Positions 13,346-19,000 of a DNA stretch of 33,526 nucleotides are shown here, one piece after another. The notes beneath the pieces are model-generated. The model ran no database searches. It had not been told where the DNA came from and was given only the letters and a program-made list of their open reading frames with translations. The translations under genes and the position numbers were made by a program. Position 1 is the stretch's first letter. Every line of letters begins with the position of its first letter. The DNA comes from Microcaldota archaeon (lineage in GTDB: Archaea > Micrarchaeota > Micrarchaeia > Micrarchaeales > Micrarchaeaceae): contig JAGWHI010000010.1 in assembly GCA_028866905.1 (NCBI GenBank), forward strand, positions 1 to 33,526, read 5' to 3'.

Positions 13346-13353
13346 GTGTGTTG

Positions 13354-14739
13354 ATGGAAAGGTCTGTAGAGGGCATAGTCTCAGCTGTCAGGCTGGAGCC
13401 TGACCTGCGCGACAACATCTACACCGTAGTGTCGGGATCCGGAGTCCACGAGGTGAAGAGCGGCATAGTGCTCGAGCCCCTTGACAGGATAAGCCTGGCC
13501 GGCGATGAGGTCTCGATAAACGGCAGGGCCACGAATGAAGATTACGAATCTGCGATATCCGGGATAGTAAACCGCATAGGGCTCCACGACGGCGCCTTCT
13601 CGGCGTTCGGGGACAGGGCCGGGCCGGTTGCGAAGGTGATGTCGCACCAGATGGTCGAGTGCGCGAAGCTCTTCCTGAAATCGTACATGGGCGGAGCACC
13701 GATTGTCGTGAGGTTCCACAACGATGGCGACGGCGCCAGCGGCGCCGTGGCTATATACAGGGCGCTTGCGAAGATCGGGAGGGATTCGGGCCTGGCGCGC
13801 CAGCCCAAGTGGCGCATGCACAGGGGAGTCTCGTACGACATGGAGTCGTTCTACAGCGACATGGCCGAGTTCGGAAACACCAAGAGCATAGAGAAGCCCC
13901 TTCTGCTGATAACCGATTTCGGAACCGCCCCTGAGAGCGAGAAGGCAATAGAGCTCGCAAGGGAGCAGGCCAACATAATATGGTTTGACCACCACATGCC
14001 ATACGCGGGATTCAGGAAGGAGCTGGTCCCGCACTACGTAAACCCGTGGGAGCACGGCGGCGACTCCAACTTCACAGCTGGGCTGCTTTGCTGCGTCTTC
14101 TCTAGCCTCATTTCCGGAATCGACAACTCCGTGCTGGCGCAGGCGTCGTTCATAAGCGACTACAGCGACATGGCGGACAGGTCAAGCGAGGAGGGCCACA
14201 GGACTGCGCTGCTCCTCGACCACATAACAAGCGCGAAGAGGATAGGGTCCGTGACAAGGGAGCGGATTACGCCGGGTTTCATAGACTCGATAATATCGGA
14301 CAGCGAGACCTCTGGACGCATGTACAGGGAGGTCAGGAACAGCGTGGACGAGGCCCTGGCGCTCGGCCTGTCTCACGTCAAGAGGTACACCACAAAGTCA
14401 GGGAATGCCGTATCCGTGCTCGACTTCGAGCACATATCAAGGGCATCCGACGGCGCAATGCTGCCCGGCAGGTACAGCTCCAGGCTGCACGAGAAGATGG
14501 AGGAGATATCCGGAGACTGCATAACCATCGTGCACTACGGGCAGTACATATCGCTCAGGGTCAGCAGGAGCATAGCGGAGAAGGTCGGGCTCCTGGTTAC
14601 GATAGGGAACATGAAGAAGTTCGAGGAGTATGTGGAATCCGGGGGCGGGCACAACCAGGCCGGCAGCATAAGGATGAAGGGGGATTACGCTGATGAAGTG
14701 ATGCCGATACTCCTCAGGGAGCTCGGCGTAAAGCTTTAA
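13354..14739 (+). CDS. DHH-family phosphoesterase, archaeal RecJ/GAN-like nuclease
   Basis: About 461 residues. An N-terminal region (1-110) precedes the DHH domain, whose metal-binding motifs are FHNDGDGASG (121-130), LLITDFG and WFDHHMPY (the DHH triad). A DHHA1-type C-terminal substrate domain ends with GGGHNQAGSIRMK. This is the layout of archaeal RecJ-like single-strand exonucleases (GAN family), which use Mn2+/Mg2+ and associate with the replisome; some members instead cleave RNA or small nucleotides. In-frame starts are GTG 13348 and ATG 13354; I prefer the ATG. No partner GINS or primase gene is in the window. Convergent with the next gene. Confidence 0.8.
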   Translation: MERSVEGIVSAVRLEPDLRDNIYTVVSGSGVHEVKSGIVLEPLDRISLAGDEVSINGRATNEDYESAISGIVNRIGLHDGAFSAFGDRAGPVAKVMSHQMVECAKLFLKSYMGGAPIVVRFHNDGDGASGAVAIYRALAKIGRDSGLARQPKWRMHRGVSYDMESFYSDMAEFGNTKSIEKPLLLITDFGTAPESEKAIELAREQANIIWFDHHMPYAGFRKELVPHYVNPWEHGGDSNFTAGLLCCVFSSLISGIDNSVLAQASFISDYSDMADRSSEEGHRTALLLDHITSAKRIGSVTRERITPGFIDSIISDSETSGRMYREVRNSVDEALALGLSHVKRYTTKSGNAVSVLDFEHISRASDGAMLPGRYSSRLHEKMEEISGDCITIVHYGQYISLRVSRSIAEKVGLLVTIGNMKKFEEYVESGGGHNQAGSIRMKGDYADEVMPILLRELGVKL

Positions 14740-15497: not shown

Positions 15498-16733
15498 CTA
15501 ATTCATAGCCGCTATCCAGTCTACCTCGTCGTCGCTCATGCTGTACTTGCGCATGAAGAAGCCGTAGACCATCTCCTTGTCCTTCTCGCCTTCGAGCGCC
15601 TTCTTCGCTATCTGGGAGATGAGCCTCATCTCGCTCCTCACAACGTTCTTCGAGTTTGTGTGCACCTGCCTCTGGAGCTTCTCCGCGATTGCAGAGCCCT
15701 TGTTCCTCTCCTCCTTGGACTTGCTGAGCTGGGAGATTATACGCGGGAAGGTGTACCTCTCAGTTATCTCAGGGTACCTGCTCTTCGAGAGCGTGACGCC
15801 GGCAGACACCAGGACCTTCATGTACCTCCAGTAGGTGTAGTACTGGCTCCTGTTCGCCCTGGTCAGGTATGCGCTGCCGTCTGACAGCGCAGTGAGCGCG
15901 TTGTAGAGGTCCCTGCTGTCCTTGTACCGCTTCGGCAGGTTCTCTTCTATCCAGTTGATGAGCATGTCGTTCGACAGGTCGGACTCTGTCGTCGCAGCCG
16001 CGCGCATCGATGCCGCCATCGTATTCGCGGAGAATATCTTGTCGAGTACCACGAAGATGTCGTTCTTCCTGTCGCGGAGCCCGACGGATTCGAATGCCTC
16101 TTCCGGCGCGTCGTGCATGGCAATGAAATCGTTTATCGCGCTCCTGACGTCGCCCGCGCACCTCCCTGATATGAGGTCCATGGTCTCGCCTCTCGCGCCT
16201 ATCCCGAGCCTCTTGGCGAGCGCGTTGAGAACGTTGGAGACCTGCAGGGGAGTCAGCTTCCTGAACTCCACGCCGTCCGCCTTGCCCCTAAGGAAGACAA
16301 TGCTCTGGTCCCACATGTTGTTCGCTATGAATATGACGGGATTCTTCGATTCGGAAAGCAGCCTCGATATCGCTGCGCTTGCCCCCTTGTCGAACCTTGG
16401 CGCGAGCTCGTCAATCTCGTCGAGCAGTATGAGGTTCCTCGCGCCGAAAAGGCTCCTGGTGGTCGAGGCGCTGACTATCCTGCGCTCTATCGACTCCCTG
16501 TCCCTGTAGTCCGCCGCGCTCATCTCAACAACGTTCCAGCCGTTCTCCTCGGCGAGCTTGTGCGCAGCCGCTGTCTTGCCTGTGCCCGGCGGGCCATGCA
16601 GTATGAGCGGCCTCCTGGCTACCCCTTTGTTTATGTCAGCTGCGAATGCCCTTAGGTAAGACACCGCACTAGAGCAGCCTATGAGCTGGTCAAGCGAATC
16701 TAGTGCGTAGGCATCAGGATTAGAGGCATCCAT
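15498..16733 (-). CDS. rfcL: replication factor C, large subunit
   Basis: AAA+ clamp-loader subunit that, with RfcS, opens and loads the PCNA ring at primer ends. Walker A is GPPGTGKT (47-54) and Walker B is ILLDEIDEL (102-110). The AAA+ lid follows, then a helical collar and a basic helical C-terminus (about 300-411) typical of RfcL. Unusually, the N-terminal WxEKYRP box found in RFC proteins is degenerate (PDAYALD in its place), and I see no PCNA-interacting peptide at the C-terminus, which ends DWIAAMN. The start is ATG 16733, about 25 nt after a TATA box, so it is leaderless. Confidence 0.88.
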   Translation of the reverse strand: MDASNPDAYALDSLDQLIGCSSAVSYLRAFAADINKGVARRPLILHGPPGTGKTAAAHKLAEENGWNVVEMSAADYRDRESIERRIVSASTTRSLFGARNLILLDEIDELAPRFDKGASAAISRLLSESKNPVIFIANNMWDQSIVFLRGKADGVEFRKLTPLQVSNVLNALAKRLGIGARGETMDLISGRCAGDVRSAINDFIAMHDAPEEAFESVGLRDRKNDIFVVLDKIFSANTMAASMRAAATTESDLSNDMLINWIEENLPKRYKDSRDLYNALTALSDGSAYLTRANRSQYYTYWRYMKVLVSAGVTLSKSRYPEITERYTFPRIISQLSKSKEERNKGSAIAEKLQRQVHTNSKNVVRSEMRLISQIAKKALEGEKDKEMVYGFFMRKYSMSDDEVDWIAAMN

Positions 16734-16815: not shown

Positions 16816-17430
16816 ATGGAAGCCAGAACGGCAAGGCCACAGTTCAAGGACGCTGCGCTACAGGAAAGCCGATTCAGGGACTCCGTGCACCTTTCGGTCA
16901 AGATCGACAAGCTGCTCGTGTTCAAGGCGCTGGATTTCGCAAAGACAGAGCACTGCGGCCAGGTGCGCGACGACGGTACCGAATACATTGTCCATCCGAT
17001 AAGGGTCGGAAGGATACTGCTGGAGGAGTTCAAGGTTACAGACCCGAGCGTGCTCGCTGCTGCCATGCTGCACGACGTAGTTGAGGACTGCAGTGTCCAG
17101 AAGAAGGAAGTCTCGGAGAGGTTCGGCGCAAGGATTGCATCGATAGTGGGATCGCTGTCGATGAACCTGTATGGGAGCAAGGGCGAGTACTACAGGAGCC
17201 TTAGGCTTGACCCTGCCGACGTACGGATAATAACTGTGGCGGACAGGACTGACAACCTCCGCAACCTACCCTACAACACCCAGGATCAGGGTTGGACAAA
17301 AGAGAGAGTCGACAGGTACCTTAAGGAGACTGAGGAGTGCGTGCTGCCCCTAACAGTCGGCCTCGGGGACGAGGTAAGGATAAAGCTCAGCGCCCTGGTG
17401 ACCGAGACCAGGGACAGGAAATGGCCCTAG
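16816..17430 (+). CDS. MESH1-like HD-domain (p)ppGpp-hydrolase-type protein
   Basis: 204 residues forming a single RelA/SpoT-type HD domain with no synthetase, TGS or ACT domain, like small alarmone hydrolases and metazoan MESH1. The metal and active-site residues are in place: Arg51 and His60 (IVHP), His86-Asp87 with Glu90-Asp91 (LHDVVED), and Asp143 with Asn147 (VADRTDNLRNL). The predicted reaction is removal of the 3'-pyrophosphate of (p)ppGpp; MESH1 also hydrolyses NADPH to NADH, so the physiological substrate here is open. The TATA at 16784-16795 supports ATG 16816. Its TAG stop and that of the next, convergent gene share the palindrome CTAG. Confidence 0.82.
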   Translation: MEARTARPQFKDAALQESRFRDSVHLSVKIDKLLVFKALDFAKTEHCGQVRDDGTEYIVHPIRVGRILLEEFKVTDPSVLAAAMLHDVVEDCSVQKKEVSERFGARIASIVGSLSMNLYGSKGEYYRSLRLDPADVRIITVADRTDNLRNLPYNTQDQGWTKERVDRYLKETEECVLPLTVGLGDEVRIKLSALVTETRDRKWP

Positions 17431-17972
17431 CCCAGGGCCCCCTTTATCATCGCCTTCTCGTCCTCGGTGAGGACGCCCTCCTTTGCGAAGTACCTGTGGC
17501 CAAGCACAAACCTCAGCGCCTCGGCCCTCTCGCCCTTGGCTTCTGATGTCAGCCTGATTATCTCGGACGGATCGTTGATCCTCGTGTGCTCGCCAGTCTC
17601 CTCTATCCAGTCGTTGAACGTCTTGCTCATCCGGATCAGCAGCGCGATCTCGTCAACGCCCAGGAGGAACCTGTGCAGCTCCTCTATCCTCTGGACCATC
17701 TTCGGGTCGGTCTGAGCGCCGGAGTCCTTGTCGGCAACGTAGCTGTCGTACCTCTCGTGTATCTTCGGGCTCTCCGCTATCAGGTTGTTTATTATGAACA
17801 TGTCGCGCTCCATCTCGGCGGACTTGTCCGGCAGCGTCACCATCGACCCGCCCACCTTTATCCGCCCTGCGTCAATCTCCCTGTGCAACACCTCCATCGC
17901 CTCCAGTATAAGCTCGTCCTTCAGCTTGGTCAGCAGCCCCTGGCAGACTATCCACGCCGGCATCTCGCTCAT
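17427..17972 (-). CDS. hypothetical protein, 181 aa, in glycosylase operon
   Basis: A soluble, strongly helical and acidic protein of 181 residues that I do not recognise. The C-terminal part (FAKEGVLTEDEKAMIKGALG) resembles short-helix DNA- or protein-binding tails but gives no assignment. The ATG at 17972 overlaps the TGA of the Nudix-UDG gene as ATGA, so it is the last gene of a three-gene, translationally coupled operon. It may therefore work with that enzyme or with the tRNA-binding protein. Its stop overlaps the convergent HD hydrolase stop. Confidence 0.65.
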   Translation of the reverse strand: MSEMPAWIVCQGLLTKLKDELILEAMEVLHREIDAGRIKVGGSMVTLPDKSAEMERDMFIINNLIAESPKIHERYDSYVADKDSGAQTDPKMVQRIEELHRFLLGVDEIALLIRMSKTFNDWIEETGEHTRINDPSEIIRLTSEAKGERAEALRFVLGHRYFAKEGVLTEDEKAMIKGALG

Positions 17973-19000
17973 TTCTTCGCCCCCTTCCTGTTATGAGTTA
18001 TCGCTTTGTTGCGCCATTGCCTAGGCGAGGGCCTGGGACTCGCCTTCATCAGCTTTGCGACCTTCGACACATCATCAACCATTATCGGGAACTTGTCCCT
18101 GAACCTCAGCGCCGCGGCAGGGTGGAATGTCGTAAGGTATGTCCTGCCGCCCTTCTCCGTTATCTTCCCGTGGTTGGTTTCGACTGCGCCGTCGCCCAGC
18201 AGGACCTGGTTTGCAAGGTTGCCAAGGAGTATCACGTACCTGGGGTCCACGAGCTCCAGTTGCCGGTAGAGGAAGGGCCTGCACAGCTCCACCTCCTGGT
18301 CCGTGGGCATCCTGTTTTCCGGGGGGAAGAACTGGACTGCGCTCATTATGTAGATGCGGTCCCGCCTGAACTTGTTGCGCCTGAGCACGGCCTCGAGGAG
18401 CTTGCCGCTCCTGCCTACGAAGGGCTTCAGCTTCGCGTCCTCGACTCGCCCCGGCGCCTGGCCGATGATCATCAGCTTTGCGTTCAGCGGGCCCTCCCCG
18501 GGCACGAACCTACTGCTCAGCTCCCACCCCTGCGACTTCTCAGGCAGTGCTGAGTACTCGGAGTTTATAGACTTGATCTCGTCAAGCTTCCTGGCGTATG
18601 AGAACGCTGCGTCGCACAGCGGCAGCATGTCCTCGTATCCGAGCAGCTTCTTGAACTCCTGCTCGCTGACCCATTTGAACCCGGCATGCTCCTCGGATAT
18701 CTTGGCGCCGGCGCTCTTCGACTCGGCGAGGAAGTACTTGACGAACTTGAGGACCCTTTTCTTGTTCTCGAAGTAGAAGTACTTGGCCGTAGAGCTGAAG
18801 TAGGGCACCAGCGTGACCCTGAGAGAGGTCTCCTCCATTATCTCCCTTATCGCGGCAACGCCCGAGCTCTCGCCCTTCTCTATGTGGCCCTTCGGGAGGT
18901 CGTAGCCCTTCCCCTTCCTCTTGAGGATAAGGTACTTGCGAGAGGCTCCGCTGCCAACGAATATGAATGCGCCGGCGGAGTACTGCGTCTCAACCATCAT
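17969..19000 (-). CDS. fusion: Nudix hydrolase + family-4-like uracil-DNA glycosylase
   Basis: 343 residues. The N-terminal domain (1-135) is a Nudix hydrolase with an exact Nudix box starting at Gly38 (GHIEKGE ... REIMEET to residue 58). The C-terminal domain (about 150-320) follows the family-4 uracil-DNA glycosylase pattern: FVPGEG, GQAPGRVED (180-188), PFVGRSGKLL, RPFLYRQLELV and FHPAAALR with His293. A basic tail follows. Key family-4 residues are changed: GEAPG is GQAPG, the Asn before the third Cys is Ser, and only one of four Fe-S cysteines remains (Cys240, with Phe224 at the partner site). It could couple nucleotide-pool cleansing to base excision, or the UDG half may have a new role. 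Confidence 0.85.
   Translation of the reverse strand: MMVETQYSAGAFIFVGSGASRKYLILKRKGKGYDLPKGHIEKGESSGVAAIREIMEETSLRVTLVPYFSSTAKYFYFENKKRVLKFVKYFLAESKSAGAKISEEHAGFKWVSEQEFKKLLGYEDMLPLCDAAFSYARKLDEIKSINSEYSALPEKSQGWELSSRFVPGEGPLNAKLMIIGQAPGRVEDAKLKPFVGRSGKLLEAVLRRNKFRRDRIYIMSAVQFFPPENRMPTDQEVELCRPFLYRQLELVDPRYVILLGNLANQVLLGDGAVETNHGKITEKGGRTYLTTFHPAAALRFRDKFPIMVDDVSKVAKLMKASPRPSPRQWRNKAITHNRKGAKK

Follow-up and report, generated by a model that had tools for sequence, protein, structure and literature searches.

Whether the [4Fe-4S] cluster of DNA glycosylases plays a structural role or senses damage by redox chemistry is debated, and an archaeal gene in which a Nudix domain is fused to a uracil-DNA glycosylase (UDG) domain of family-4 type with an incomplete cluster site raises the question of what such a glycosylase would do. 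The gene lies at positions 17969-19000 on the minus strand of the window (the whole 33,526-nucleotide stretch of archaeal DNA analysed here), and an earlier note on it had suggested a cluster-free glycosylase, an enzyme with different base specificity, or a DNA-damage sensor fused to a pool-cleansing hydrolase. In the open-access literature we found no paper that dealt with a UDG from Micrarchaeota or with a fusion of Nudix and UDG domains, most subscription papers being outside this search.

Domain layout and relation to known UDG families

The open reading frame starts with ATG and encodes a single polypeptide of 343 amino acids, in which Pfam recognised a NUDIX domain at residues 7-120 (E 4.2e-15) and a UDG domain at residues 167-303 (E 7.6e-32). 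Among the NCBIfam models, the protein passed the family-4 UDG subfamily model TIGR00758 (128 bits, cut-off 125.3) and failed both the type-4 equivalog model NF040953 (130 bits, cut-off 250) and the UdgX model TIGR03914 (95.5 bits, cut-off 189.95). An AlphaFold2 model that drew on 51 members of the family had a mean pLDDT of 92.8 and a pTM of 0.88, with residues 324-343 at low confidence. Across 182 residues its UDG half matched T. thermophilus UDGa (1UI0) at Z 27.9, and its Nudix half found its best fold matches in Ap4A/Ap6A hydrolases (Z ~20). The putatively ApnA-hydrolase-like Nudix domain was placed at residues 4-140 (18581-18991, pLDDT mostly >92) and the family-4-type UDG domain at residues 141-320 (18041-18580), with a long helix identified by DSSP on the model linking the two domains (residues 123-150, 18551-18634); all of these features, and those described below, are on the minus strand. 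The presence of both domains in one polypeptide, as described in the earlier note, was therefore borne out by Pfam, TIGR00758 and the fold match.

Compared with the family-4 enzymes TTUDGA of T. thermophilus (1UI0), TM0511 of T. maritima and the S. tokodaii UDG (4ZBX), the UDG half shares the fold of the whole domain (Z 27-28, ~31% identity), the catalytic His, the water-positioning Asn, the stacking Phe, the pocket Glu and HPxxxLR, but it lacks three of the four cluster cysteines, carries GQAPG where they have GE(G/A)PG, Ser in place of the Asn that reads uracil and QFF instead of KCR, and is usually fused to a Nudix domain. It is derived from family-4 UDGs and, by the membership tests, is not to be filed among them: the His and Arg of motif B were present in HPAAALR, while GE(G/A)PG motif A, the uracil-reading Asn of motif 3 (N80 in T. 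thermophilus) and the four cysteines were not found, Cys240 being the only one left both here and in ~95 relatives. UdgX has the same fold (Z ~25) but is distinguished by a motif 3 R-loop insertion with a cross-linking His, by GEQPG rather than GQAPG and by its cluster ligands; based on the sub-threshold TIGR03914 score, the absence of the R-loop insertion and GQAPG, membership in UdgX was rejected. Family-5 UDGb also has the UDG fold (2D3Y, Z 20.6), but the GLAPx motif I, different motif B and four retained cysteines of that family were replaced here by GQAPG and one cysteine. Two genomes of the same order had, as their only UDG, a UDGb-like gene with GLAPS.

The cluster site and its distribution

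In an alignment with solved family-4 enzymes, the cluster cysteines of the S. tokodaii UDG fell on Leu152, Ser156, Phe224 and Cys240. The N-terminal CxxC site is missing (Leu152...Ser156, 18533-18547) and Cys240 (18281-18283) is the sole remaining ligand position, in agreement with the earlier claim that three of the four [4Fe-4S] cysteines are gone. Cys240 was kept in 92 of the 95 aligned members and in 45 of 48 in an unbiased set. We also looked for four cysteines elsewhere in the domain, and no other column contained Cys in more than 8 of the 95 members; ligands from other cysteines were therefore rejected. The loss of ligands, fixed across the order and without replacement cysteines, supports the proposal of a glycosylase domain that would be cluster-free, in which Leu152, Phe224 and the retained Cys240 are probably packed as a hydrophobic core. 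Cys-to-Ser mutants of family-4 UDGs lost ~40% of uracil excision and kept ~60% (PMC5295032), and at so small a cost an enzyme without the cluster can function. Clusterless MutY homologues (Trasvina-Arenas et al. 2016, as cited in PMC11078426 and PMC5295032) likewise constitute a glycosylase lineage without a [4Fe-4S] cluster, although MutY belongs to the HhH superfamily and differs in fold and substrate. Four HhH-GPD genes were found in the source genome, and three of them have C-x5/6-C-x2-C-x5-C loops. Because these paralogues retain their iron-sulfur loops, a genome-wide loss of Fe-S glycosylases was rejected and the loss is specific to this UDG family.

A protein search of 60 relatives gave full-length fusion matches in most of them. 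When 295 genomes of the phylum Micrarchaeota were searched with a profile, the fusion family was present in both families of one order of these tiny, uncultivated archaea, in most of the sampled genomes, and absent from the other orders of the class, which have stand-alone UDGs of ~190-220 aa; 12 of the 14 stand-alone UDGs examined had all four cysteines and motif 3 KCR. All 54 order members formed one clade in a tree of 74 rows (support 100/99), and its nearest neighbours were two solo UDGs from related orders, L165 (100/97 for the group including it), with no CxxC, KWR, Glu and Ser, and L166 (94/71 with the clade), with CxxC kept, GMAPG and KYY. Being partly stripped of cluster ligands, these two are possible intermediates. 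A whole archaeal order thus appears to have lost the cluster from its family-4-type UDG, whereas clusters were retained in sister orders and in other glycosylases from these very cells, and together with L165 and L166 it would provide a natural series on the purpose of the cluster and its replacement.

Chance was excluded, since dozens of relatives share the entire arrangement. For close pairs, dN/dS was 0.06-0.22 in the UDG and 0.03-0.18 in the Nudix domain; order-wide conservation and these low ratios led us to reject a sequencing error or a pseudogene, and such purifying selection, together with ancient and strong conservation, suggests a protein that is almost certainly working and not decaying.

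Relatives in named collections were nearly all from Candidatus Micrarchaeota. A contig scan with the single protein as query returned no relatives, and with the alignment as query it returned 80 loci. Seven family members lay on contigs labelled Marsarchaeota or Thermoplasmata, where the labels or bins are probably wrong, since some of these contigs equal in length contigs of order members from the other collection (L109 and G033:C10, for example). One divergent fused member has GESPG and ITSIFPIYINGEK around motif 3, has lost Gln223, Asn229 and Cys240, and is perhaps decaying. A second, distinct family-4-type UDG of the cluster-free kind, with no CxxC and with VKSHP for VKCRP, was seen in three genomes of the same order (G008, G032 and G185, genus g9), in none of which was the fusion-family UDG found. 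It retains GEAPG, Asn and Lys, and apparently represents an independent cluster loss.

Catalytic residues and the base-reading pocket

In T. thermophilus UDGa, H155 stabilises the leaving group, N89 positions the water, N80 contacts N3 and O4 of uracil and E41 binds O2 via its main chain; k2/Km dropped ~2500-fold in H155S, ~890-fold in E41Q, ~43-fold in N80A and ~7-fold in N89A (PMC5387724). The equivalents of H155, N89, F54 and E47 are kept in the fusion protein as His293 (in motif B HPAAALR, 18104-18124), Asn229, Phe194 and Glu187, and those of E41, N80 and the KCR triplet are altered. Motif I/A reads GQAPG (residues 180-184, 18449-18463), with Gln181 replacing Glu, and motif 3 (Y217-R230, 18311-18352) has Ser220 at the N80 position, Gln223 in place of Lys and Phe224 in the resulting QFF, ahead of Asn229. 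Both substitutions named in the earlier note, Glu to Gln in motif I and Asn to Ser before the third Cys, were found, the latter four residues ahead of that Cys position, as were the kept PFVGRSG and HPAAALR. With one set of residues kept and the other altered, catalysis would be preserved and base reading changed.

Among the 95 aligned members, His293, Phe194 and Glu187 were invariant (95/95 each), Gln181 was found in 94 and Ser220 in 90, and Asn229 was found in 94, the latter within residues 222-230, where the alignment is biased because the search that supplied 80 of its rows used the pattern VQFFP[PF]xNR. The unbiased set (n=48) gave Gln181 in 47, Ser220 in 44, Gln223 in 46, Phe224 in 47, Asn229 in 47 and His293 in all 48. 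The signature GQAPG ... TSxVQFFPPxNR ... lone Cys ... HPAAALR is close to fixation across ~120 members, with Asn instead of Ser at 220 in 5 of 121. The constancy of the catalytic His (95/95) and, with the bias just given, of the water-positioning Asn (94/95) speaks against the non-catalytic damage sensor of the earlier note, that is, against a UDG half which binds damaged bases with no or very slow catalysis and so brings the Nudix half or other repair proteins into position. Such a binder would fit the change of two residues needed for fast uracil excision, and the usual presence in the order of an EndoQ-like enzyme alongside several HhH glycosylases, but several lineages retain the UDG half without the Nudix half, and we consider this reading improbable.

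The reading we favour, and to which we give an even chance, is that the UDG half has no cluster but is an active glycosylase, one whose readout of the base is weakened or broadened, and that it is joined to an ApnA-type Nudix enzyme. The family-4-derived half would act as a DNA glycosylase without an iron-sulfur cluster and probably works like a family-4 UDG: His293 would stabilise the leaving base and Asn229 position the water, with Phe194 stacking on the base, Glu187 guarding the pocket and HPAAALR entering the DNA. Ser220 would cost the enzyme the two hydrogen bonds that Asn forms with uracil, and the change of the Glu181/Lys223 pair to Gln181/Gln223 would retune base reading. The likeliest outcome would be a slower glycosylase whose choice among deaminated bases (uracil, perhaps hypoxanthine or xanthine) is looser or shifted, acting in cells that seem to have no EndoV (not found in 21 genomes) and mostly have an EndoQ-like enzyme. 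A different base specificity is thus plausible from the residues, since two pocket residues have changed at positions costly in the T. thermophilus enzyme (E41, N80; PMC5387724) and the catalytic residues are kept; because the changes are fixed at positions mutated in Thermus UDGa, base specificity is directly testable.

Each pocket change has a separate precedent, and it is the combination with cluster loss and fixation that is peculiar. Ser at the N80 position also occurs in three canonical Fe-S relatives of other orders and may therefore still allow normal excision of uracil. GQAPG was seen in family-4 domains of phages whose cysteines are intact (in a scan selected for the GQAPG motif), while canonical relatives from other orders have Glu at the motif I position. 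The Glu/Lys to Gln/Gln change at 181/223 looks coupled, a coupling that rests on essentially one event on the tree. Two of the phage domains, from viral contigs, share GQAPG motif I with the fusion protein but keep the cluster cysteines and the Asn and have no Nudix domain; in both, a family-A-like DNA polymerase carries the UDG-like domain as an N-terminal fusion.

The same residues could belong to an ordinary uracil-only DNA glycosylase with useful rates, in which the pocket changes are compensated, with contacts re-established by Gln181/Gln223 and either Ser220 or Asn220 being enough, and the cluster was lost by neutral drift, a reading to which we assign perhaps one chance in three. The occurrence of Ser in iron-sulfur relatives and of Asn in a few members, the little activity that family-4 enzymes lose on cluster removal (PMC5295032), and the g9 enzyme, which shows with its GEAPG, Asn and Lys that cluster loss and specificity are separable, all agree with it, but E41Q and N80A each harm uracil excision in Thermus UDGa (PMC5387724), and the order-wide joint fixation of Gln181, Ser220 and Gln223 points to a changed pocket.

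Gene content bears on this choice as well. The source genome (0.89 Mb, 31 contigs, ~90% complete) was searched for another family-4 or family-5 UDG, and no other gene of the UDG superfamily was found, which makes the fusion gene the only one found there and is in keeping with an ordinary UDG. The genome and 54 of 60 relatives also have a gene that matches TIGR00375 below the model cut-off, and which we take to be EndoQ-like; its presence in most genomes counts against the uracil-only reading, as such an enzyme could take over uracil. In the first 60 genomes the absence of EndoQ seemed to go with Asn220, but this did not repeat in 76 more. Pooled within the family it amounted to 2/20 versus 3/101 (Fisher P 0.19), and it is genus g9, with its different UDG, on which the overall P of 0.006 depends, so the link was dropped. 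The source genome further has a dCTP-deaminase/dUTPase-family gene and an exonuclease III-like gene, and on its contig C31 an EndoQ-like PHP gene lies next to two divergently oriented endonuclease III paralogues.

The Nudix half and its link to the glycosylase

The Nudix box (residues 38-60, 18821-18889) reads GHIEKGESSGVAAIREIMEETSL, and its catalytic and metal-binding residues G38, E44, R52, E53, E56 and E57 were invariant in 92 of 92 fused relatives aligned. The box had earlier been called complete; all catalytic positions of GX5EX7REUXEEXGU are indeed present, and the last Gly of the consensus is Ser59. By both sequence and fold, the closest relatives of this half are ApnA hydrolases and not MutT. 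It has in common with the Ap4A/Ap6A hydrolases aq_158 (3I7U), Ndx1 and NUDT2 the Nudix fold (Z ~20), the Nudix box and the EHxxYxW segment, but is only ~25-29% identical to them and is fused to a UDG. The half thus resembles an ApnA hydrolase in sequence and predicted fold and would be a catalytically competent ApnA-type enzyme working largely independently, although its substrates cannot be read from sequence. With ApnA hydrolases as its nearest relatives, the pool-cleansing role proposed earlier gained no specific support.

The two halves also occur apart. At least six lineages have a UDG of the family without a Nudix domain, and the DNA examined there showed no trace of one; the same was seen at one further locus, for which ~350 bases of upstream DNA were examined; conversely, G008 and G032 of genus g9 have a Nudix-only gene of the fusion family (150-157 bits). 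Separation in both directions indicates that the halves can work apart. This, and the ApnA-like rather than MutT-like character of the Nudix half, weigh against a single pathway in which the Nudix half clears a damaged (d)NTP and the glycosylase excises the corresponding base from DNA, an arrangement compatible with either an altered or an ordinary glycosylase. That most members are fused with both active sites conserved fits such a pathway, as does the precedent of MutY, a glycosylase that carries a Nudix-fold domain (PMC9266487), and we regard it as unlikely. The likeness to MutY extends to the presence of a glycosylase and a Nudix fold in one chain, but the Nudix-like domain of MutY is C-terminal, MutT-like and non-catalytic (PMC9266487) and sits on an HhH glycosylase, in contrast to the N-terminal, ApnA-like domain with a near-intact box described here. 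More speculatively, and with rather little confidence, the protein might represent a new family within the UDG superfamily, without a cluster and with a changed base specificity set by Gln181/Ser220/Gln223. Its fused Nudix domain would destroy the nucleotide that carries this lesion, and a single chain would clean both pool and DNA.

No conserved gene neighbourhood was found: the neighbours in the window recur at few of the 80 loci, and gene order was therefore rejected as a clue to function. Both flanking ORFs share 4 bases with the ends of the fusion ORF. Downstream, the start of a gene for a 181-aa protein (17427-17972, minus strand) overlaps the end of the fusion gene; this protein had no Pfam or NCBIfam match, and its relatives occur at 2 of the 80 related loci, in non-adjacent positions. 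On the other side, the end of a gene for a stand-alone tRNA-binding domain protein (PF01588; 18997-19401, minus strand) overlaps the start of the fusion gene. A DHH nuclease encoded at 13348-14739 on the plus strand matched a Hef-associated nuclease model with 82 bits, far below its cut-off, and the large subunit of replication factor C is encoded close to the fusion gene (15498-16733, minus strand).
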